From contig NZ_RYFI01000010.1 of the NCBI RefSeq assembly GCF_004103825.1, positions 311 through 35,653 on the forward strand: 35,343 nt of DNA, in the 5' to 3' direction. The translations under genes and the position numbers were made by a program. Origin of the DNA: Hansschlegelia zhihuaiae (GTDB lineage: Bacteria; Pseudomonadota; Alphaproteobacteria; Rhizobiales; Methylopilaceae). This document shows positions 447 to 14,354 of the stretch, piece by piece. Position 1 is the stretch's first letter. Each line of letters opens with the position of its first letter. The notes below the pieces were generated by a model. That model saw only the letters and a program-made list of their open reading frames with translations. It was not told where the DNA came from and searched no databases.

Positions 447-3401
<2,955 letters not shown>

Positions 3402-3409
3402 CCGACCTC

Positions 3410-3456
3410 ACGATTTCGCGTGACCCGGCTCAAGCGAAATCGTCTATGACCGGGTC
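3410..3456 (+). repeat. Interleaved inverted repeats between sucA and sucB
   Basis: ACGATTTCGC (3410-3419) is the exact reverse complement of GCGAAATCGT (3434-3443). GACCCGG (3422-3428), inside that loop, pairs with CCGGGTC (3450-3456) beyond it. The order A-B-A'-B' allows either two competing hairpins or an H-type pseudoknot in the sucA-sucB transcript. It could equally be the remains of a dispersed intergenic repeat. No T-run follows, so it is not a standard terminator. Confidence 0.55.
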
Positions 3457-3556
3457 GGAAAATCGTATCGCGCCGCCTAGAGTGCATGCGGCGAGCGGCG
3501 CCGTCCGGCGTCCGCGTCCTTGAACAGGGGAGGTCCCTCGGGCGAGGGGCGATCTG

Positions 3557-4864
3557 ATGGCCACTGAAATCCGCGTTCCGACGCTCGGCGAGTCCGTCAC
3601 CGAGGCCACAATCGGCCGCTGGTTCAAGAAGCCCGGCGAGGCGGTCAAGCAGGACGAGCCCGTGGTCGAGCTCGAGACCGACAAGGTCACGCTCGAGGTT
3701 CCGGCGCCCGCCGCCGGCGTGCTCGGCGCGATCGAGGCCGGCGACGGCGAGACCGTCGGGGTCGGGGCGCTGCTCGGCTCGATCGAAGCCGGCGAGGGCG
3801 CGGCCGCCAAGGAGGCGCCGAAGGAGCCCGCCAAGAAGGAGGCCAAGGCCGAAGAGCCGAAGCCGATCAAGGACGACGCCAACGAGACCAAGTCAAGGGC
3901 CAAGGAAGACGCGAAGCCCAAGGCCAATGGCGGCGCCGCGCCGGCCGACGCCGGGCTCGCGCCCTCGGTGCGCCGCATCTCGGACGAGGCCGGGATCGAT
4001 CCGTCCACGGTGAAGGGCACGGGCAAGGACGGCCGCGTCACCAAGGGCGACATGCTGGCGGCGGCTGAGGGCGGCGGGCAGGCCAAGGCGCCTGAGCGAC
4101 CGTCGGCCCCGCAGCCTCAGGCGCCGACCCCGCAGTTCCGCGCGCCCTCCGCGACCGACGATGCGGCGCGCGAGGAGCGCGTCCGGATGACGAAGCTGCG
4201 CCAGACCATCGCGCGCCGCCTCAAGGACGCCCAGAACACCGCGGCCATGCTCACGACCTTCAACGAGGTCGACATGACCGAGGTCATGGCGCTGCGCGCC
4301 AAGTACAAGGACACGTTCGAGAAGAAGCACGGCGTGAAGCTCGGCTTCATGGGCTTCTTCGTGAAGGCGGTGATCCAGGCGCTGAAGGACATTCCGAGCG
4401 TCAACGCCGAGATCGACGGGACCGACCTCGTCTACAAGAACTACTACCATGTCGGCATCGCGGTCGGCACCGAGCGCGGCCTCGTGGTGCCGGTGGTGCG
4501 CGACGCCGACCTGATGGGCCTCGCGGGCATCGAGAAGACGATCTCGGACTTCGGCCGCCGCGCCCGCGACGGCAAGCTCGGCATCGAGGAGATGCAGGGC
4601 GGCACCTTCACGATCACCAATGGCGGCATCTACGGGTCGCTGATGTCGACCCCGATCCTCAACGCGCCGCAGTCCGGCATCCTCGGCATGCACAAGATCC
4701 AGGAGCGGCCGATGGCGATCGGCGGCAAGGTCGAGGTCAGGCCGATGATGTATCTCGCGCTGAGCTACGACCACCGCATCGTCGACGGCAAGGAAGCCGT
4801 GACCTTCCTCGTCCGCGTAAAGGAAAGCCTGGAGGACCCGGCGCGGCTGGTGATGGATCTGTGA
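3557..4864 (+). CDS. sucB: Dihydrolipoyllysine-residue succinyltransferase (E2 of OGDH)
   Basis: Core of the 2-oxoglutarate dehydrogenase complex; it transfers succinyl from its lipoyl arm to CoA. Domains in order: a lipoyl domain with [14 protein letters not shown] (lipoylated Lys43), an Ala/Lys/Glu-rich linker to about 130, the E3/E1-binding domain near 134-170, a second Pro/Ala linker, and the catalytic domain from about 210, ending with SYDHRIVDG (His406 and Asp410). There is one lipoyl domain, as usual for E2o, and 435 residues is normal. A strong GAGGGG ribosome site (3544-3549) precedes the ATG. Its stop overlaps the next gene by four bases (GTGA). Confidence 0.97.
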
Positions 4865-5145
4865 GCGTCGTCGACCCGCCGGCGGTCGCCGCCGAGATCG
4901 ACGCGATGAAGCGGGCCTGGGACCGCCGGATGGTCCTCGCCTGCCTCACCATGGCGGCGATCGTCGCGTTCTTCGCGATCGATCTCTGGGGCGATGAGGG
5001 CATGGCGGGCGAGCTCATGACGATCGCCCCGTGGTTTCTGGGCCTCGCGCTCGCCATCTTCGCGACGACCAGGCTCGCGGTCGCGCATCAGGCGAAACAG
5101 ATACGTGCGAAGGGCGCGGGCGGCCGCGTTTCGTCGGCGAAGTGA
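4861..5145 (+). CDS. Small two-helix membrane protein, function unknown
   Basis: A 94-residue protein starting with GTG inside the sucB stop (GTGA overlap), which points to translational coupling. It has an N-terminal amphipathic stretch, two hydrophobic segments (about 24-42 and 54-73) joined by an acidic loop (DLWGDEG), and a basic tail ([14 protein letters not shown]), so both ends probably face the cytoplasm. I recognise no domain. Its place between E2 and E3 genes suggests co-transcription with the complex but does not show a role in it. Confidence 0.75.
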
Positions 5146-5151
5146 GGAGCG

Positions 5152-5583
5152 ATGCCCGACACTGACCAGCATCCCCCCGTCCAGCCTCACCTCTGCGTCA
5201 AGGGCGGATCTGCGGCGCTCGCCTTCTACCAGAAGGCGTTCGGCGCCCAGATCTCCATGAAGGTGCCGGCGCAGGACGGGGTCCGCCTGATGCACGCGAC
5301 CGTTCGCCTGTTCGGCGGCGAGGTGCTGATCCACGACGAGTTCCCCGAGCACCATGGCGACGGCAAGGTCCTGTCGCCCAAGACCGCGGGCGGCCCGAGC
5401 GTCGCGATCAACGTCAATCTCGGCTCGGCCGCCGACGTCGACGCCGCGATGGAGAAGGCCGAGGCCGCCGGCGCCGTCATCGTGATGCCGGCCGAAAACA
5501 CCTTCTGGAACGCCCGCTATGGGCGCATCCTGGACCCGTTCGGCCATGTCTGGGCCTTCAACGCCCCGCTGGCGGACGCCTGA
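5152..5583 (+). CDS. VOC-fold (glyoxalase/PhnB-like) protein
   Basis: A 143-residue protein of the vicinal oxygen chelate superfamily. The N-terminal [21 protein letters not shown] and C-terminal [13 protein letters not shown] are the usual beta-alpha-beta-beta-beta signatures of the PhnB/YycE-like branch. Such proteins bind metal or small ligands and include glyoxalases, bleomycin-type resistance proteins and many of unknown substrate. It starts six bases after the small membrane protein and ends 46 bases before lpdA, so it is probably part of the sucAB-lpd transcript. Substrate and activity cannot be assigned from sequence. Confidence 0.85.
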
Positions 5584-5629
5584 CTCGACGTCTCACCGCC
5601 CCTCCTCGAACGAAATCCGAAAGAGAGCA

Positions 5630-7030
5630 ATGGCCTACGATCTCGTCGTCATCGGCACGGGCCCCGGCGGCTATGTCTGCGCGATCCGCGCGGCGCAGCT
5701 CGGCCTCAAGGTCGCCGTGGTGGAGAAGCGCGCGACCCACGGCGGAACTTGCTTGAACGTCGGCTGCATCCCGTCCAAGGCGCTGTTGCACGCCTCCGAG
5801 CTGTTCGACGAAGCGGGCCACGCCTTCGAGAAGATGGGGATCGTCGGCCCGAAGCCCGACCTCGACCTCAAGAAGATGATGGCGTTTAAGGACGAGGGCG
5901 TCGCCGGCAACGTCAAGGGCGTCGAGTTCCTGCTCAAGAAGAACAAGGTCGAAGCGCATCGCGGTGCGGGCAAGATCCTCGGCGCCGGCAAGGTCGAGGT
6001 CACGGCCGAGAATGGCGAGACGTCCACGCTCGAGACCAAGTCGATCGTGATCGCGACCGGTTCCGACGTCGCGCGGTTGAAGGGCCTCGAGATCGACGAG
6101 ACCAAGATCGTGTCGTCGACGGGCGCGCTGGCGCTGCCGGCCGTGCCCAAGAAGCTCGTCGTCGTGGGCGGCGGGGTGATCGGGCTGGAGCTTGGCTCGG
6201 TCTGGCGGCGGCTCGGCTCGGAGGTGCTGGTGGTCGAGTTCCTCGACCGCATCCTGCCGGGGATGGACGCGGAGATGTCCAAGCAGTTCCACCGCATCCT
6301 CGGCAAGCAGGGGATCGGGTTCAAGCTCGGCTCGAAGGTCACGGGCGCGGAGAAGGCGGGCGAGCGGCTCAAGGTTGCGATCGAGCCCGCCAAGGGCGGC
6401 GACGCCGAGACCGTCGAGGCCGACGTCGTGCTGGTCGCGATCGGGCGCGCTCCCTACACGGAAGGGCTTGGCCTCAAGGAGGCCGGCGTCGAGCTCGACG
6501 AGCGCGGCCGCGTGAAGACCGACGGCCATTTCAAGACTAATATCGACGGGATCTACGCCATCGGCGATGTGATCGCCGGCCCGATGCTCGCCCACAAGGC
6601 CGAAGACGAGGGCATCGCGATCGCCGAGATCCTGGCGGGCAAGGCCGGGCACGTGAACTACGGGGTGATCCCCAACGTGGTCTACACCTACCCGGAAGTC
6701 GCCTCGGTCGGCCGCACCGAGGAAGAGCTGAAGGCCGACGGCGTCGACTACAAAGCCGGCAAATTTCCGTTCACCGCCAATGGTCGCGCCAAGGCGAACG
6801 CGACCACGGACGGCTTCGTGAAGATTCTGGCCGACGCCAGGACCGACCGGGTGCTGGGCGTCCACATCGTCGGCCCGCGCGCCGGCGACCTGATCGCCGA
6901 GGCCGCGATGGCCATGGAGTTCGGCGCGTCGTCCGAGGACATCGCCCGCACCTGCCACGCCCATCCGACGCTCGCGGAGGCGGTCAAGGAGGCGGCGCTC
7001 GCCGTCGAGGGCCGCGCCATCCACATGTGA
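5630..7030 (+). CDS. lpdA: Dihydrolipoyl dehydrogenase (E3)
   Basis: FAD-dependent enzyme that reoxidises the dihydrolipoyl arms of the 2-oxoacid dehydrogenase complexes with NAD+. The start chosen is ATG 5630, giving 466 residues and [25 protein letters not shown] as the FAD-binding start, preceded by AAAGAGAG. The longer in-frame start at 5519 would overlap the VOC gene and add non-conserved residues. The redox pair is Cys41/Cys46 in [13 protein letters not shown], a second dinucleotide fold ([11 protein letters not shown]) follows, and the C-terminal catalytic His445-Glu450 lies in HPTLAE. It is the last gene of the sucA-lpdA group and converges on the next operon with a 10-bp gap. Confidence 0.96.
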
Positions 7031-7040
7031 GGCGGCGGCC

Positions 7041-8411
7041 TCAGAACAAATGGCTGTAACGCTCAGTCTCCCAGGGAGAGATCGTCGCGTGGTATTCGCG
7101 CCACTCCTCGCGCTTCAGCTCGACGAAGGCGTCTCGCAGTTCTCGGCCGAGCGTCTTCTCGACCAGCGGGTCGGCCTCGAAGGCGTCGACCGCCTCCGCC
7201 AGCGTCTGGGGCAGGAACTCGATGCCGCGCCGCGCCCGCTCGGCCTCGCTGATCTCGTACAGATTGTCCTCGTTGGGCTCGCCTGGATCGAGCCTTTCGC
7301 GCACGCCCTCCAGTCCCGCGGCGAGCGCCAGCGCCGCGGCGAGATAGGGGTTCGCGGCCCCGTCCGCGTTGCGGCTCTCGCAGCGGCCGCCGCCCATCGG
7401 CACGCGGATCGAGTTGGTGCGGTTGTTCGAGCCGTAGGAGTTGAACACCGGCGCCCATGAGAAAGTCGCCATCGCGCCCCGGCGCGTGAGGCGCTTGTAG
7501 GAGTTCACGGTCGGTGCGAAGGCCGCGCAGAGCGCCCTTCCGTGGCGGATGACGCCGGCGATGAAGTGATAGCCGGTCTCCGACAGTCCGAGCCCGCGCG
7601 GGTCGTCGCCTGCTGCGCGGGCGAACAGGTTCTTGCCCGTCTCGGCGTCCGACAACGACATGTTGAAATGCGCGCCATTGCCCGTCCGGTTCGCGAAGGG
7701 CTTCGGCATCATCGTCGCGACCAGCCCGAAATCGGCGGCGTATTGCTTCGCCATCAGGCGGAAGAAGGTCAGGCGGTCGGCGGTCGTCAGCGCGTCCGAA
7801 TAGGCGAAGTCGAATTCGAACTGGCCATTGGCGTCCTCGTGGTCGAAGGAATAGAGGTCCCAGCCGAGCGCCTGGATGGTCTCGGCCATCCGGTCGACCC
7901 AGCCGAAATTGGAAAGGAAGCCGCGGACGTCGTAGCAGGGCTTCACGAGCCTGTCGTCGGGGTCGGGGATCGAGAGCGAGCCGTCGGCCTCCTTCCTCAG
8001 CAGGAAGATCTCGCACTCGATGCCGAGGTTGAAGCCGAAGCCGAGCGCCCGCGCCTCCTCCATCACGCGCTTCAGCACGACGCGGGTCGAGAGCGGATAG
8101 GGCTCGCCCTTCAGCGTCACGTCGGCCGGCGCCCAGGCGATCTTGGGCTCCCAGGGCAGCTGGATGAAGCGGTCGAGGTCCGGCACGGAGGCGAACTCGT
8201 CGTCGTTCGGCTTCTGGCCAAGCCCGTCGAGCGCATAGCCGGTGTAGAGCTCGGAGCCCGCCGCCATCTGCGGCAGGTGGTCGAGCGGCACGACCTTGCC
8301 CTTCTGCGCGCCGTGCAGGTCGACATAGGCCCCGATGCAGTATTTCACGCCGCGGGCGCGCAGGTCGTCCATCACGGCTTTGACGTCGTCGCTGGCTTCC
8401 ATGGCACTCAT
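7041..8411 (-). CDS. glnT: Type III glutamine synthetase-like (GlnT/GMAS family) ligase
   Basis: ATP-dependent ligase of 456 residues that joins ammonia or an amine to the gamma-carboxyl of glutamate. It resembles rhizobial GlnT and the gamma-glutamylmethylamide synthetases of methylotrophs: an N-terminal beta-grasp region with [33 protein letters not shown] near 190, the substrate-binding [18 protein letters not shown] near 235-255, [10 protein letters not shown], and [17 protein letters not shown] near 345-360. The start ATG 8411 overlaps the creatininase stop (ATGA). It is the last gene of the five-gene operon, so its amine substrate may come from the amidohydrolase. Whether it uses ammonia or another amine cannot be told from sequence; the gene symbol denotes the family. 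Confidence 0.85.
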
Positions 8412-9184
8412 GCTTTCACGGGGATCGCCGCGGGCTCGTCATAGCCATGCGGCAGGGGAGGGGATTCGGCGAGGCCGCGCCGGACGATCGCCGCGAGGTC
8501 CTCGACCATCCAGACGAAGAGGCGCGCGCCCTTCTCGGCGCTTGCGCTGCTAGGCGTTCCGGTCACCCCGTTGCGGCTGGTGCGGTTGACCGGGTGGGCG
8601 AAGACGAGGCCCTCCGTGCGATCGGGGTCGTCGGCGTCGGCGAGGCGGTCGGGCCGGACGACGCCGGGCGCGAGCGCCATCATCAGCGAGGTCTCGGCGT
8701 CGTTCGCATGCCAGTCGGCGGCGTCGGCGAAATGCGCCTCGCGCACCCGCTCGCTCAGGGTCGCGGTGTTCAGAAGCGCGACCATCAGGTCGTCATGAGC
8801 GGCGCGCAGGAGCTCGAGCGCGGACCTCAGCGGCGCGGCGTTGGTGACATGCGCGTTGACGATGAAGAGCCGCCGGACGCCCGAGGCGTAGGCGCCCTCG
8901 CCGACCGCGGCGACCAGGCGGGTCGTCAGGACGGGATCAAGCGCGATGGTCCCGGGCCAGCGCCGGCTGTGGCCGAGAGAGCAGCCATAGGGGACCGTCG
9001 GCAGCATCGGCACGCCGGTCGCTTCCGCGACGTCGCGGCAGAGCCGGTCGGCGAGCAGGAAATCCATGCCCGCGCCGAGATGCGGCCCGTGCTGCTCGGT
9101 CGCCCCGACGGGCAGGATCGCGGCGTTCGCGGCGGCGGCGAGGTCGCCCGGCAGTTCCTCCCAGGTCCGCTCCGCCCAGAGCAT
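8408..9184 (-). CDS. Creatininase-family amidohydrolase
   Basis: A 258-residue metal-dependent amidohydrolase. The family signature [17 protein letters not shown] gives metal-ligand candidates Glu30, His32 and Asp41. IVNAHVTN (His112) stands where the family usually has NGHxxN, and [14 protein letters not shown] (His159, Glu164) stands where HAGExETS is usual, so the core is intact but the subtype is not the common one. Family members open creatinine or deformylate formamidopyrimidines. It starts one base after the transporter ATPase stop and overlaps the ligase gene by four bases, so all three are made together. It probably hydrolyses the imported compound in the cytoplasm; the substrate is unknown. 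Confidence 0.87.
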
Positions 9185-9185
9185 G

Positions 9186-10088
9186 TCAGTCGACCCCGTG
9201 GCCGACGCTGTCGAGCTTCACCACCGGCGGCGCGGGCTCGTCGTCCTCGGCGCCCGCCTGTTCGTGGGCGTGGATCAGGCTTTCGAGCCGGGCGAGCGTC
9301 GCCTCCAGCGCCGGGTCGTCGAGGCTCCGGCCGCCGGGCGGACGGAGCGCCGGCACCTCCATCAGTTCCACCACCTCGCCGGGATTGGCCTTCAGCACCA
9401 GGATGCGGTCGGCGAGCAGCACCGCCTCGTCGAGGTCATGGGTGATGAACAGGATGGTGACGTCGATTTTGCGCCAGATGTCGACCAGATAGGCCTGCAT
9501 GCGCGCGCGGGTGCGGGCGTCGAGCGCCGAGAACGGCTCGTCCATCAACAGGATGCGCGGCTGGATCGCGAGCGCGCGGGCGATCGCGACGCGTTGCTTC
9601 ATGCCGCCCGACAGTTGCGCCGGATAGGCGTCGGCGTAGGGCTCGAGCCCGACCAGCGTGAGCCACTGACGCGCCTGCCGATCGGCCTCGGCCTTGGGCA
9701 GGCCGGCCATTTCGAGGCCGAACATGACGTTGCGCAGCACGCTGAGCCAGGGGAACAGCGTGTAGCCCTGGAACACCATGGCGCGGTCGGGTCCCGGACC
9801 GTGCACAGGCCGGCCCGTGACCAGGATGTCGCCGCCCTGCGCCTCCTCGAGGCCTGCGATGGTGCGGATCAGCGTCGACTTCCCGCAGCCTGACGGGCCG
9901 ACCACGCACAGGAATTCGCGCCGGTGGGTGACGAGGTCGATCCCGCCGAGAATGGTGCGTTCGCCCGAGCCGCTCGGGACGCGCTTCACGAGGCCGCGGA
10001 CCTGCAGTATCTCCTCGCGGGCCTTGATGCGCGCGAAGCGGGCGCGGACGTCTTCGCTCTGCTCGGGAAGCGCAAGCGACCCGCTCAT
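9186..10088 (-). CDS. ABC transporter ATPase, NitT/TauT type
   Basis: ATP-hydrolysing subunit of the importer, related to the nitrate/taurine/sulfonate class (NrtD, TauB, SsuB). In 300 residues it has Walker A GPSGCGKST (64-72), VFQGYTLFPWLSV (Q-loop), signature LSGGMKQRVAIARAL from 159, Walker B ILLMDEPFSALD from 179, and ITHDLDEA (H-loop). A C-terminal extension of about 60 residues follows the nucleotide-binding fold. The start at 10088 forms an ATGA overlap with the permease stop; the open frame runs further upstream, but only as a shadow of the permease gene. Confidence 0.94.
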   Translation of the reverse strand: MSGSLALPEQSEDVRARFARIKAREEILQVRGLVKRVPSGSGERTILGGIDLVTHRREFLCVVGPSGCGKSTLIRTIAGLEEAQGGDILVTGRPVHGPGPDRAMVFQGYTLFPWLSVLRNVMFGLEMAGLPKAEADRQARQWLTLVGLEPYADAYPAQLSGGMKQRVAIARALAIQPRILLMDEPFSALDARTRARMQAYLVDIWRKIDVTILFITHDLDEAVLLADRILVLKANPGEVVELMEVPALRPPGGRSLDDPALEATLARLESLIHAHEQAGAEDDEPAPPVVKLDSVGHGVD

Positions 10089-11086
10089 GCGCTGGTCGCC
10101 TTCCAGGGGAACAGCCAGCGGCCGAGCCGGGCGAGCAGCAGGTCGGAGCCGAAGCCCACCACGCCGAGGATCAGGATCGCGGCGTAGACATTCTCGAAAT
10201 GCTGGTAGCGCGCCTGCTGGGTGATGAAGAAGGTGATGCCCGACGAGGTGCCGACCAGCTCGGCGACGATCAGGTAGGTCCAGGCCCAGCCGAGCAGGAT
10301 GCGCTGGTCGTTGTAGAGGTCCGGCAGGATCGCCGGCACCACGACGCGCCGCACCAGCCGGAGGTTCCGAGCGCCGAGCGTCTGGGCGGCCTCCAGCAGC
10401 GCGTATTCCACGCGGCGCGTGGTGGCGGCGATGATCAGCACCTGCTGGAAGAACGTGCCGATCACCACGATCGCGATCTTCGGCCCGTCGTAGATGCCGA
10501 GCACCGCCACCGCGAGCGCGCCGAAGGCAGGCGCCGGCAGGTAGCGGAAGAACTCGACGAAGGGCTCGGTCAGCCGGCCGATCGAGGAGTAGGCCCCGCA
10601 GAGGACGCCGAGCGGCACGCCGACGGCGGAGGAGATGAGGAAGGCCCAGAAGATGATCTGGACCGAGTGCCAGAAGGCGCCGAGCAGGGAGGTTCCGCCG
10701 CCCTCGGCCGGGAACACGGCCTTCCACAGCGCGACCGCGACCTCGTGCGGGGCCGGCAGATAGACCGGGTTCGCCGGGACGCCCTGCGGCGGCGCCTGGC
10801 CGCCGGCCTTGGCGGCCTCGACCTCGGCCGCGAAGGCGTCGCCCGGCGCCCGCATCCCCTTCTCGAAATAGGCGACGTCGCCGGGATCGGTGATCTCGAT
10901 CAGCGGATGCCAGAGGAAGGGCAGGTAGGAGACCGCCGACCATATCGCGAGCGGCAGCAGGAAACTCAGCACGCCGAGGATGAGCCGCGCGCGCGGGCTC
11001 GGCGCCCGGCCGACCGCGAACCAGCCGGCCGAGACCGGCCGACTCTTTCGCGCGCCGGCCGGCTGCGGGATCGCGGCCTCCGCCAC
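10085..11086 (-). CDS. ABC transporter permease, NitT/TauT type with periplasmic insert
   Basis: Inner-membrane subunit, 333 residues, starting with GTG six bases after the binding-protein gene. The first membrane helix is at about 34-54. It is followed by an unusual polar segment of about 50 residues (about 60-110, rich in Ala, Gly and Pro) before PAPHEVAVALWK, where the ordinary family sequence resumes. The later half carries the EAA coupling loop EAAQTLGARNLRLVRRVVVP and about five more helices. From memory, a similar insert occurs in permeases linked to urea or guanidine metabolism. It pairs with the ATPase and binding protein beside it. Confidence 0.92.
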   Translation of the reverse strand: MAEAAIPQPAGARKSRPVSAGWFAVGRAPSPRARLILGVLSFLLPLAIWSAVSYLPFLWHPLIEITDPGDVAYFEKGMRAPGDAFAAEVEAAKAGGQAPPQGVPANPVYLPAPHEVAVALWKAVFPAEGGGTSLLGAFWHSVQIIFWAFLISSAVGVPLGVLCGAYSSIGRLTEPFVEFFRYLPAPAFGALAVAVLGIYDGPKIAIVVIGTFFQQVLIIAATTRRVEYALLEAAQTLGARNLRLVRRVVVPAILPDLYNDQRILLGWAWTYLIVAELVGTSSGITFFITQQARYQHFENVYAAILILGVVGFGSDLLLARLGRWLFPWKATSA

Positions 11087-11092
11087 GACGTC

Positions 11093-12103
11093 TTACTTCG
11101 CCGCGGCCTTGGCGGTGGCGGCCTTCGCGATCGACGGCTCTATATAGGACTTCACGTCCTGCGCGTCCTTGTAGACGCCGTATTTCACGTTGAACGCGTC
11201 GGCGTTGCGCGACGAGCCGTAGAGCGAGCCAAAGCCGTCGGAGTCCTCGAAGACCTTGGCGCCCTCGGCGAGACTGAGCAGCCGGGTCCCCTTGAGGAGC
11301 TTCGCGTAGCTTTCCGGCGGCACGCCGACGCGGTTCGCCATCATCTTGACGGCGTCGTCCTTGGTCTTCGGGTCGGAGATATAGGCCACGACCTTGTCCC
11401 AGACCTTCACGAACTTGGCCCAGTCCTGCTTGCGGGCCGCGAGGCTCGTCGGCGAGACCGTCACCACGTCGTAGATCAATCCCGGCTGGTCGGCCGAGGT
11501 GTAGAGCGGCCGCGACCCCGGAGCGGCGCGCATCGCGGCGCCCGCGATCGGCTGCCAGGCGCCGATCGCCGAAACGTCCGGGGTTCCGAAGACCTGCGGG
11601 GTCTCGTTGGTCTTGACGTTGACGATCTCGACGTCGGTCTCCTTGAGGCCGGCCTTTTCGAGGCCGTTCAGGATCAGCAGGTGCTCGACGAGGCCCGACT
11701 CCAGTCCGACCTTCTTGCCCTTAAGGTCCGCGAGCGACTTCAGGCCCGGCTTGCCGACGATGATGTCGTTGCCGTTGGAATAGTCGGTGAGCATGATCAT
11801 CACGCTCTTCGACCCGTTCGCGCCCATCACCAACGCGTCGCCATTGGTGACGGTGACGGCGTCGATCTTGCCGGCGCCGAACGCCTCCATCGAGGCCGAA
11901 TAGTCGAACCATTCGAACTGGACGTCGACGCCCGCTTCTTTGAACCAACCCTTGTCGATCGCGACCTGCCACGCCACCCAGCCCGGCCAGTCGCTGTAGC
12001 CGACGCGCAGGGGCCCGTCGGCGGCCCGTCCCGGCGACGCGACCGCCCCGACCGCCAGAAGCGCGAGCGCCGCGGCGCGAATGAGTTTTCCCAGCGAACC
12101 CAT
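11093..12103 (-). CDS. Periplasmic substrate-binding protein, NMT1/NitT-TauT type
   Basis: First gene of the operon, 336 residues. It has a signal peptide (LIRAAALALLAVGAVASPGRA, cleavage near 27) and no lipobox Cys, so it is a soluble periplasmic protein. The mature part starts LRVGYSDWPGWVAWQVA and contains VTVTNGDAL and TDYSNGNDIIVG, which resemble the binding proteins of urea-carboxylase/guanidine-linked importers more than true taurine or nitrate binders. A ribosome site (AGAGGA) precedes ATG 12103. The palindrome at 12121-12150 lies 18 bases upstream and is probably its operator. The ligand is not known. Confidence 0.9.
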   Translation of the reverse strand: MGSLGKLIRAAALALLAVGAVASPGRAADGPLRVGYSDWPGWVAWQVAIDKGWFKEAGVDVQFEWFDYSASMEAFGAGKIDAVTVTNGDALVMGANGSKSVMIMLTDYSNGNDIIVGKPGLKSLADLKGKKVGLESGLVEHLLILNGLEKAGLKETDVEIVNVKTNETPQVFGTPDVSAIGAWQPIAGAAMRAAPGSRPLYTSADQPGLIYDVVTVSPTSLAARKQDWAKFVKVWDKVVAYISDPKTKDDAVKMMANRVGVPPESYAKLLKGTRLLSLAEGAKVFEDSDGFGSLYGSSRNADAFNVKYGVYKDAQDVKSYIEPSIAKAATAKAAAK

Positions 12104-12120
12104 GCGATGTCCTCTCGCCA

Positions 12121-12150
12121 GTTATTACGAATTCCGATATTCGTAATAAC
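12121..12150. promoter_or_regulatory. Perfect 12+6+12 bp palindrome, probable operator of the NikR-like regulator
   Basis: GTTATTACGAAT (12121-12132), spacer TCCGAT, then ATTCGTAATAAC (12139-12150) is an exact inverted repeat in the 83-bp gap between the divergent importer and regulator genes. Read as GTTATTAC-N14-GTAATAAC it has the half-site length and spacing reported for NikR operators (compare GTATGA-N16-TCATAC in E. coli). Its AT-rich arms stand out against the surrounding GC-rich DNA. It probably controls both directions. Confidence 0.75.
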
Positions 12151-12176
12151 GAGAGTCATGCACGGGGCGTGCCAGC

Positions 12177-12181
12177 GGAGG
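12177..12181 (+). promoter_or_regulatory. Ribosome-binding site fixing the NikR-like start
   Basis: GGAGG lies five bases before ATG 12187. The alternative GTG at 12169 precedes this site and has none of its own, so the ATG is preferred. Confidence 0.6.
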
Positions 12182-12186
12182 GGGCG

Positions 12187-12690
12187 ATGGCGGAGGGACG
12201 GGGGAGAGGCTCACGCGGGGCGGCGGCGGACGGGCGTCGCGACGCTCTCGATCGCGTCAGCCTGTCCTTGCCGGCGGCGCTGGTGCGCGACATCGACGCA
12301 ATGACGGCGCGCCGGAAATTCGCAAGCCGGTCGCAGGCCGTAGCCGAGACCCTGCACCGCGCGCTCGTCGATGACCGCACCGAGCTCGGCGAGGAGGTGA
12401 TGGTGGGCTCCATCACCCTGTTCTACGGCCAGCTTTCGACCGGCGTGGAGCAGCGGCTCGGCGACCTACAGCGCGCCCATATCGACGAGGTCATCGCCTC
12501 GTTCCACGTCCATCTCACGGAGAACCGGACCTTGGAGACGGTTCTGGTGCAAGGGCCCGCGCACAAATTGCAGGCGATCGCCGATGAAATGATAGCCGTG
12601 CGCGGGGTGATCTCGGGTCGGCTTCACGTGGTGGCGGCCATCATCCCGCAGCTGCACCCCTTCATTCGGGATGGCGTGCAGAGGGGCTAG
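12187..12690 (+). CDS. NikR-family ribbon-helix-helix regulator with altered metal site
   Basis: A 167-residue protein: a basic, Gly/Arg-rich N-terminal extension (1-20), a ribbon-helix-helix DNA-binding domain (about 22-62, RVSLSLPAALVRDIDAMTARRKFASRSQAV), then an ACT-like metal-sensing domain. It aligns without gaps to E. coli NikR around the nickel site. His107 and His109 (FHVHL) match ligands H87 and H89, but H76 is Arg96 and C95 is Thr115. A His lies at 98, two residues from the H76 position. Half of the square-planar nickel site is therefore gone. It is divergent from the importer operon with a palindrome between, and its stop overlaps the stop of the convergent efflux gene (CTAG). Confidence 0.88.
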   Translation: MAEGRGRGSRGAAADGRRDALDRVSLSLPAALVRDIDAMTARRKFASRSQAVAETLHRALVDDRTELGEEVMVGSITLFYGQLSTGVEQRLGDLQRAHIDEVIASFHVHLTENRTLETVLVQGPAHKLQAIADEMIAVRGVISGRLHVVAAIIPQLHPFIRDGVQRG

Positions 12691-14354
12691 TGCGCCGGCG
12701 TGGCCGCGGCGCCGGGCGTTGGCCGCCGCACCAGCGGAACCAGCACGACGATCACCGCAAACAGGATCGTCAGCGCCCAGAACAGGTCGCCGAAGGACAG
12801 CACCAGTCCCTGCTGGCGGACGTTGTTGGAAAGCTGCTTCACCGCGCCGAGCTCGGCGTCAGAGCCGAGCCGGTCCGACAAGGTCTGCGTCATCCCGGCG
12901 AGCCGCTCCTCCGCGACCTGCCGGCCCCAGGTCACGTGCTCGCGCAGATGCAGCATGTGGATATCCTGCCGCTCGTTCAGGAAGGTGTTGATGAAGGCGA
13001 GGCCGAAGGCGCCGCCAAGGTTGCGCATCAGGTTGAACAGGCCGCTGGCGTTCTTGAGCTTGTCGGGCGGCAAGGTGGCGAGCGACACGACGTTGATCGG
13101 CACCATGCACATCATCAGCGAAACGCCGCGCAGCGCCTGCGGCGCGAACAGCTCCCAGAACGCCCAGTCCTTGGTGATGTAGCTGAGGTCGATGCAGGAC
13201 AACGCAAAGCCGAGGAAGCCCGCGGCGATCAGGTAGCGCGGGTCCATCTTGCGCGACAGGATGCCGACGACGGGCGCCGTCAGGAACATGAAAAGCCCGG
13301 AGACGAACACCGTCTCGCCGATCTGCAGGCTGTCATAGCCTCGCACCCGGCCGAGGAAGACCGGGTAGAGATAGGTCATGCCGTAGAGGCCGATGCCCAT
13401 CGTGAAGGTGAGCGCCGAGCCGACCGCGAAATTGCGGTTCTGATAGGCGCGCAGATCCACCAGCGGCTCGCGGGCCGTGAAGCAGCGCCAGAAGAACAGC
13501 GCCGCGCCGAAGACGCTGGCGACCGTCAGGAACCGGATCGTGTCGTCCTGGAACCAGTCGTCCCGCGACCCCTCCTCGAGCACATATTCGAGCGGCCCGA
13601 GGAACACCGCGAGGCCCAGCAGCGCCGCGAGGTCGAGACGCTTCAGGAGGCTCCAGTCGGGCTGGTCGAAGTCGACCATGGTCCAGGCGATCAGCGTCGC
13701 GGCGGCGCCGGGCACGACATTGATCAGGAACAGCCAGTGCCAGGAGAGCAGCTCGGTGAGATAACCGCCCACCGTCGGGCCGATGGTGGGGGCGAGCGTC
13801 ACGGTCAGGCCGACCAGCGCCATGATGGCGGGCTGCAGGCGGCGCGGGAAGATCGTGTAGGCGGCCGCGAAAGCCGTCGGGATCATGCCGCCGCCGATGA
13901 AGCCTTGCAGCGCTCGGTAGGTGATCATCTCGGGCAAGGTGGTGGCGGTCGCGCAGAGCACGCTCGCGGCGGTGAAGCCGGCGGCCGAGATCGAGAACAG
14001 CACGCGCGTCGACATCGCCCGGGCGAGATAGCCCGAAAGCGGGATCATGATCACTTCGGCGATCAGATAGCTGGTCTGGACCCAGGAGATCTCGTCGGGG
14101 CTCGCCGACAGGCCGGCCTGGATCTCGGACAGCGAGGACGACACGATCTGGATGTCCAGGATCGCCATGAACATCCCGAAGACCAGCGCGAAGAACGCGA
14201 TGAGGCGCCGCGGCGTGACCTCGGGCTCCGGGGGAGCCGGGGGTCCGCCGCGGCTCCCCGCGTCCGGAAGCCCGGAGGAGGAGCCGGCCGCCGGCCGCGG
14301 GGGGACGCGAACCAGGTCGGCGGTCGATCGGTCGCTTGATGCGCCGTCGCTCAT
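12687..14354 (-). CDS. emrB: DHA2-family multidrug efflux MFS transporter (EmrB-like)
   Basis: A proton-driven drug exporter of 555 residues with about 14 hydrophobic segments, as expected for the EmrB/QacA (DHA2) branch. The N-terminal IAFFALVFGMFMAILDIQIVSSSL and the antiporter motif TLAPTIGPTVGGYLTE are typical. It starts 28 bases after the stop of the adaptor gene, so the two form an emrA-emrB operon; with an outer-membrane channel (not in the window) they would span the envelope. A Pro/Gly-rich cytoplasmic N-terminus of about 50 residues precedes the first helix. Substrates are not predictable. Confidence 0.93.
   Translation of the reverse strand: MSDGASSDRSTADLVRVPPRPAAGSSSGLPDAGSRGGPPAPPEPEVTPRRLIAFFALVFGMFMAILDIQIVSSSLSEIQAGLSASPDEISWVQTSYLIAEVIMIPLSGYLARAMSTRVLFSISAAGFTAASVLCATATTLPEMITYRALQGFIGGGMIPTAFAAAYTIFPRRLQPAIMALVGLTVTLAPTIGPTVGGYLTELLSWHWLFLINVVPGAAATLIAWTMVDFDQPDWSLLKRLDLAALLGLAVFLGPLEYVLEEGSRDDWFQDDTIRFLTVASVFGAALFFWRCFTAREPLVDLRAYQNRNFAVGSALTFTMGIGLYGMTYLYPVFLGRVRGYDSLQIGETVFVSGLFMFLTAPVVGILSRKMDPRYLIAAGFLGFALSCIDLSYITKDWAFWELFAPQALRGVSLMMCMVPINVVSLATLPPDKLKNASGLFNLMRNLGGAFGLAFINTFLNERQDIHMLHLREHVTWGRQVAEERLAGMTQTLSDRLGSDAELGAVKQLSNNVRQQGLVLSFGDLFWALTILFAVIVVLVPLVRRPTPGAAATPAH

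Follow-up and report, generated by a model that had tools for sequence, protein, structure and literature searches.

A predicted guanidine import and processing operon in Hansschlegelia zhihuaiae, facing a NikR-family protein that appears to replace a guanidine riboswitch

Which compound would be served by an importer encoded next to a creatininase-like hydrolase and a glutamine synthetase-like ligase, and what signal would reach such genes through a regulator of the NikR family? The question is raised by a locus of Hansschlegelia zhihuaiae (Alphaproteobacteria, Rhizobiales, Methylopilaceae), contained in a window of 35,343 nucleotides (assembly GCF_004103825.1, contig NZ_RYFI01000010.1, positions 311 to 35,653; coordinates below are those of the window). 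Five minus-strand genes, separated by gaps of 6, -4, 1, and -4 bp, encode an ATP-binding cassette (ABC) importer of the NitT/TauT type, comprising an NMT1-family periplasmic binding protein (SBP; 11093..12103), a BPD_transp_1 permease (10085..11086), and an ABC_tran ATPase (9186..10088, from a chosen ATG, the longest open reading frame [ORF] extending further), followed by a creatininase-family amidohydrolase (8408..9184; PF02633, 219.5 bits) and a GlnT-like ligase of the type III glutamine synthetase (GS)/GmaS superfamily (7041..8411; Gln-synt_C/TIGR03105, 640.7 bits, above cut-off). A NikR-family gene (12169..12690, plus strand; NikR_C PF08753, 75.2 bits) is divergent. A preliminary description had listed these genes, their families, and their spacing, all of which are confirmed by coordinates and profile matches; the link to guanidine carboxylase and to the riboswitch, the palindrome resembling an operator, and the sigma-54-like promoter, all reported here, had escaped it. 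We propose, with a probability of roughly 0.8, that the locus is a nitrogen-limited (sigma-54) operon for guanidine import and processing, whose NikR-family repressor would respond to guanidine or to a product of it.

Scanning one genome per species gave at least 591 pattern matches, at least 556 of them relatives, and the best 80 were kept. GlnT occurs together with the creatininase gene in 79 of these 80 loci, and the gene set is therefore not a chance assembly. It was found across Alpha-, Beta-, and Gammaproteobacteria, most commonly in the arrangement SBP-permease-ATPase-creatininase-GlnT with the NikR-like gene usually next, in hosts that include Methylobacterium, Hyphomicrobium, Methylovorus, Methylobacillus, Methylotenera, Thiobacillus, Aquabacterium, and Thioalkalivibrio. 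Within the order, 101 genomes (100 relatives plus the window's own) hold four clear orthologues of the creatininase-like protein besides itself, at 45-85% identity with the next match at 38%, and all four adjoin a GlnT orthologue. Conserved co-occurrence was the check that the preliminary description had named, and the recurrence of the set over three proteobacterial classes bears out the uptake operon described there as a conserved unit. A variant arrangement, a diverged GlnT (~52%) and then a creatininase (~70%), was seen in loci L047, L069, L073, L087, and L091, four of which have in common a gene judged by eye to be TetR-like, and three of which share a different importer set. Locus L107 is labelled as a Klebsiella pneumoniae metagenome-assembled genome (MAG), yet its GlnT groups with that of a Cellvibrionales MAG, and the label looks wrong.

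The neighbors of these genes point to guanidine. In the same stretch, 45 of the 80 loci carry a carboxylase, 43 and 31 carry two DUF-type proteins (UAAP2 and UAAP1, respectively), and 31 an allophanate hydrolase (amidase); the NCBIfam names, obtained for one or two representatives per family, are urea carboxylase, urea amidolyase associated proteins (CgdAB), and allophanate hydrolase. According to the accessible part of PMC11410670, guanidine and urea carboxylases are distinguished by the residue at Kluyveromyces lactis position 1330, and the Asp/Asn at this position also appears in the accessible part of PMC12186494. The guanidine-type Asp is present in 44 of the 45 locus carboxylases, the 45th being a short ORF without the motif. 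Guanidine-II riboswitches occur in 8 of the 12 loci scanned with Rfam, and a carboxylase lies less than 8 kb from a more distant creatininase-GlnT pair in genome G015 (the other neighbors of this pair were judged by eye). At the genome level, a carboxylase match at an expectation value (E) of 1e-170 or better was found in 39 of 50 genomes, in 35 of them above the curated cut-off; 46 of the 50 had been reached via the loci, mostly loci without a nearby carboxylase. Guanidinase is encoded in four of the 50, two of them among the 11 without carboxylase, so that 41 carry one enzyme or the other. Among 150 relatives, 15 have the carboxylase; creatininase lies beside GlnT in 6 of the 30 GlnT loci fetched from them, and four of these six genomes have the carboxylase (Fisher p 0.0009, for the fetched GlnT loci only).

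Known guanidine carboxylase operons with guanidine-I or -II riboswitches comprise an ABC importer, CgdAB, guanidine carboxylase, and AtzF, and the related loci carry these beside the same importer, whereas the copy in the window lacks the carboxylase and the riboswitch and has in addition GlnT, the creatininase-like enzyme, and the NikR-family regulator. The best NCBIfam match of the SBP, which is also its nearest model, is TIGR03427, "putative urea ABC transporter SBP," at 158 bits, below the cut-off of 333.9. The genome of H. zhihuaiae encodes the guanidinase (GdmH)-urease route elsewhere: a guanidinase orthologue (541.7 bits to PDB 7esr, 519.2 to 9fek), unlinked to the operon, sits behind a guanidine-I riboswitch (83.4 bits, gathering threshold 63), with urease about 9 kb away. 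Comparison among genomes thus shows, as far as sequence can, a linkage of the operon to guanidine, and guanidine is very probably what its importer would carry. Of the guanidino, ureido, and lactam compounds listed as candidate substrates in the preliminary description, it is the guanidino group that the carboxylase and riboswitch of the relatives favor.

How are these genes controlled? The Rfam scan placed a guanidine-I riboswitch upstream of the SBP gene in 4 of 12 loci. Our own guanidine-I model was built from five Rfam matches. Run over the window and the 80 loci, it yielded, at E values up to 1, 19 matches, namely 13 upstream of an orthologous SBP gene, 5 beside other genes, and 1 weak match (18.4 bits); nine of the 13 SBP-leader calls come from our model alone, at 75.5 to 109.1 bits. 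Other loci have in the leader a palindrome, GTATTAC-N14-GTAATAC, whose spacing peaks at 14: allowing two mismatches and counting a site in each of its two readings, there are 85 matches with this spacing, compared with 0-4 at each other spacing of 8-13 and 15-20, and 53 matches with at most one mismatch, compared with none in mononucleotide-shuffled sequence. We then considered the 62 loci with an orthologous SBP gene and at least 300 bp upstream of it (of the 18 others, 17 have no SBP match over 50% identity and one has a short leader). The palindrome is found in 48 of them, the riboswitch in 13, both in none, and neither in one (L068). A NikR-like gene accompanies the palindrome in 46 of 48 loci, the exceptions being L112 and L063, whose contig ends within GlnT; it is present in L068 and in only one of the 13 riboswitch loci, L094, where the sole palindrome lies at another operon. 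The p values for the exclusivity of palindrome and riboswitch (2e-12) and for the NikR-palindrome association (4e-9) both ignore relatedness; at least three switches between the two controls are placed on a GlnT tree of 61 loci and the window. The alternation of the palindrome with the guanidine-I riboswitch is shown by this comparison of leaders, and the NikR-like protein appears to replace the guanidine-sensing RNA of the relatives. That the NikR-type gene is the likely regulator, as the preliminary description held, is supported by its association with the palindrome.

The leader in the window has only the protein type of control. Its operator-like palindrome, TTATTAC-N14-GTAATAA (12122..12149), ends 18 nt upstream of the SBP start; across the loci this distance to the start codon is 14-72 nt, with a median of 20. 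The 26-bp core is the sole exact match in the genome, with none at the guanidinase or urease genes, and further palindromes in the genome occur at chance level (9 places with at most two mismatches, the window's included, versus 16 in the reversed control). A sigma-70 scan around the palindromes found no consistent element and led on to a sigma-54-like one just upstream of the palindrome, where at least 8 of 10 consensus positions match in 49 of 49 cases, compared with 63 of 1600 random windows. Under a strict rule (GG at -24, GC at -12, right spacing), 46 of 49 palindrome promoters, the window's included, qualify (the misses are L035, L038, and L044), compared with 55 among 3089 control windows, each 60 nt long. 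In the riboswitch loci, the element lies within 250 nt upstream of the aptamer in 9 of 13 cases, versus 248 of 3076 control windows of equal length. The element of the window, TGGCACGCCCCGTGCAT (12158..12174, minus strand), has 9 of 10 consensus positions and draws its weight from its place. Since the GTG that opens the NikR-like ORF falls within this element, the in-frame ATG at 12187 is the likelier start of the regulator. A sigma-54-like promoter upstream of the operon is thus supported by comparison, and transcription would start from it as expected under nitrogen limitation. The location of the palindrome where transcription should start suggests repression: the NikR-family protein would bind GTATTAC-N14-GTAATAC there and block the operon until guanidine or a product is present, doing the job of the guanidine-I riboswitch of relatives.

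A NikR-family protein would more conventionally sense nickel, and the operon might then be coupled by a true nickel sensor to the nickel enzymes guanidinase and urease. The fold agrees with this, since the model has the ribbon-helix-helix (RHH) plus NikR_C architecture of NikR nickel regulators and superposes on solved NikR, with a template modeling (TM) score of 0.95 (target length) for the isolated C-terminal domain of 2y3y and of 0.51-0.74 for the monomer versus full-length NikR chains; the NikR_C part is confident (blocks at a predicted local distance difference test [pLDDT] score of 92-96; 79.5 for the whole model, with a predicted TM score of 0.55). The equivalents of two nickel histidines, H113 and H115, are kept in 55 and 52 of 56 aligned rows, and the genome, which encodes both nickel enzymes, yielded no other NikR_C protein. 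The other two ligands of the His/His/His/Cys high-affinity site are replaced: none of the 56 rows has the Cys, 50 of them having Thr or Met in its place, and His at the equivalent of His76, the first nickel His, is found in 5, at positions that we take to have these roles in NikR. Moreover, 39 of the 50 genomes have the carboxylase, a biotin-dependent and not a nickel enzyme, the exact site copy occurs at the operon and not at guanidinase or urease, and the palindrome alternates with a guanidine riboswitch. We lowered nickel control on the ligand residues and regard it as quite unlikely.

The NikR-like protein therefore shares its fold with NikR and differs from it in two of four ligands, in its half-site GTATTAC (two loci excepted), and in its place at guanidine-linked genes; the operator geometry, 7-N14-7, is presumably that of Escherichia coli NikR. 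Pro160 in the C-terminal tail is invariant (56 of 56 rows) and His163 is present in 54. In two rows, which come from Hyphomicrobium MAGs, the reading-head Ser is replaced by Thr, and the palindrome of each of these two loci is GTATGAC-N14-GTCATAC, with a half-site that we take to be that of E. coli NikR; these two related genomes lend thin support to a match between the reading-head Thr and GTATGAC. Guanidine sensing is described in the accessible part of PMC11018352 through four known riboswitch classes, and our literature search, which left most subscription journals outside, returned, among the papers listed, no protein guanidine sensor, nothing joining guanidine and NikR, and nothing on glutamylguanidine.

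Several observations weigh against a guanidine operon in the window. Neither the Rfam scan nor our guanidine-I model matched a riboswitch there, no carboxylase above cut-off is found in the window's own genome, and the guanidinase of that genome is not under the palindrome of the operon; the guanidine assignment draws on the relatives and on other parts of the genome. At the thresholds used, nine of the 50 genomes lack carboxylase and guanidinase alike (six of the nine are MAGs, and five have urease). The sigma-54-like element of the window is by itself no rarity, 22 of 100 shuffled windows having at least one match. In the NikR-like protein, a His at position 104, two residues past the lost nickel His, occurs in 37 of 56 rows, which makes some other metal site possible and also speaks for nickel control. 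Finally, the 80 loci are best matches only, count related organisms repeatedly, and include many MAGs.

What would the two enzymes do? The nearest solved structures to GlnT by sequence are glutamate-methylamine ligase (388.2 bits) and GmaS, gamma-glutamylmethylamide synthetase (340.1 bits), with which it shares the superfamily, the equivalents of catalytic Asp177, Glu186, and Arg312, and the absence of the Asp50' of ammonia-using GS. In GmaS, the amine pocket contains Gln175 and Asn188, and Asp50'/Ala48' marks the ammonium site, according to the accessible part of PMC7948447. The pocket of the creatininase-linked subfamily (YSFDHED..GQFExDF) departs from that of GmaS, with Gln175 replaced by Ser and Asn188 by Asp in 79 of 82 rows (the three exceptions are other GlnT-family genes), and its loop differs from the GAGFAGFAxW of GmaS. 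The Asp50' position, Thr57, is Thr in 79 of 82 rows, and ammonia capture, one of the roles given to GlnT in the preliminary description, was set aside on this ground; methylamine capture, the other, loses support through the two amine-pocket positions at which GlnT departs from GmaS. With one more acid and one smaller side chain, the ligase pocket would fit a cationic nucleophile larger than methylamine. Among the 30 fetched GlnT loci of the order, six are creatininase linked, and six (L147-L152) are of the Ser/Asp type but show no creatininase gene within the stretch that was fetched; L154 has a mixed signature, and all others resemble GmaS. The Ser/Asp genes of L147, L149, and L150 adjoin genes that by eye resemble TetR and alpha/beta-hydrolase genes, and L147 also has one resembling, again by eye, formimidoylglutamate deiminase.

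The residues of this pocket also bear on whether methylated guanidines are the main substrate, their breakdown releasing methylamine for capture by a GmaS-like GlnT. Many hosts are named as methylotrophs, the nearest solved structure is a methylamine ligase, and a few loci encode a candidate methylguanidine enzyme. In L039 (6004-7991, riboswitch in front), a 2-oxoglutarate (2OG)-Fe(II) dioxygenase gene and a gene for a protein without Pfam match lie between SBP and permease; a similar pair is near the locus in L073 (4213-6253), both families occur in L090, and the partner family occurs in L040. By arrangement, the pairs of L039, L073, and L090 recall the methylguanidine demethylase pair MgdH/MgdL (described in the accessible part of PMC12508155), of which they are candidate homologs. 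Demethylation by MgdH/MgdL, however, yields formaldehyde and not methylamine, the Ser/Asp pocket is not that of GmaS, and the Thiobacillus, Aquabacterium, and Gallionellales hosts are not methylamine users that we know of, so that we hold this account to be rather unlikely.

Other genes recur beside guanidine loci. A fatty-acid-desaturase-family gene is found in L094 (1832-3672), L104, L106, and L110, often accompanied by a metallo-beta-lactamase-family gene (of the last three, in L104 and L106 only), and genes in L093 and L107 resemble this set by eye; in L094, a NikR-type palindrome at 1505 lies just upstream of the desaturase-family gene, whose product might be a membrane oxygenase acting on alkylguanidines. 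Guanidine genes are also accompanied by a xylose-isomerase-like TIM-barrel gene (PF01261) in L086 (5049-6008), L093, L096, L107, and L110.

The second enzyme has the creatininase fold (mean pLDDT 90.3, TM 0.80), and the gene names suggest creatinine uptake and degradation, as did the preliminary description in naming creatinine as a candidate. The alignment contains equivalents of E34, H36, D45, H120, W174, and H178, including the Glu/His/Asp/His core, whose roles we take to be those of creatininase. The window hydrolase, of the HVTN/WHANDAETS subfamily and 30% identical to creatininase, differs from it at E122, which is Thr114 (Thr in 78 of 81 rows), and at W154, which is Ala141 (Ala, Pro, Gly, or Ser in 81 of 81), and reaches 118.3 bits where the NCBIfam creatininase cut-off is 235. 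With these replacements (no creatinase search was made) and with the riboswitch and carboxylase of the relatives pointing to guanidine, creatinine was set aside as a highly improbable substrate. A second creatininase-family gene of the genome (C9), whose product is 29% identical, has a pyroglutamyl-peptidase-family gene as its neighbor. In Methylobacterium AM1, two creatininase genes are reported as upregulated in the accessible part of PMC12797532.

Returning to guanidine, the importer would take up guanidine and perhaps methylguanidine. In H. zhihuaiae its nitrogen would be released by the guanidinase and urease encoded elsewhere, and in most tested relatives by guanidine carboxylase and partner enzymes, while the GlnT-like ligase and the creatininase-like hydrolase may jointly carry out an undescribed reaction on a guanidino compound. 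To our knowledge, no reaction has been assigned to this pair, which keeps company with guanidine genes in three classes of proteobacteria. Creatininase opens a cyclic acylguanidine, creatinine being one itself, and this activity together with the changes in the ligase pocket leads to our first choice of scheme, a tentative one, in which GlnT would gamma-glutamylate guanidine to an acylguanidine that the hydrolase then cleaves. The pair is kept both in carboxylase genomes and in guanidinase genomes and therefore need not be a degradation step; guanidine might instead be stored in harmless form, conjugated to a gamma-glutamyl group, until it is released for either enzyme. Creatinine as a cyclic acylguanidine, and a creatininase crystallized with 1-methylguanidine (PDB 3a6d), are in keeping with such a cycle, which would cost ATP without net conversion and would leave unexplained those operon genomes with neither enzyme at the thresholds used, such as Methylobacillus arboreus (G129); we find it fairly unlikely. 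More ambitiously, the NikR-like protein could be a guanidine-responsive factor repeatedly swapped with the guanidine-I riboswitch and, at the same time, GlnT and the hydrolase could form a third guanidine pathway, in which ATP-dependent gamma-glutamylation would lower the pKa of guanidine and allow hydrolysis, for example to glutamine and urea. This double proposal is speculative, and we consider it doubtful as a whole.

On one side, the operon borders on sucA-sucB-lpd, the genes for 2-oxoglutarate dehydrogenase (447-7030); on the other lies an EmrB-type efflux gene (12687-14354), which has a 4-bp overlap with the end of the NikR-like gene.

On the reading that we prefer, guanidine is a waste compound that these bacteria would scavenge for nitrogen. 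A protein and an RNA alternating at one place in one operon would offer a natural experiment in riboswitch replacement, and the assignment of a reaction to GlnT and its companion hydrolase would supply a missing part of a nitrogen pathway relevant to metformin and guanylurea pollution.

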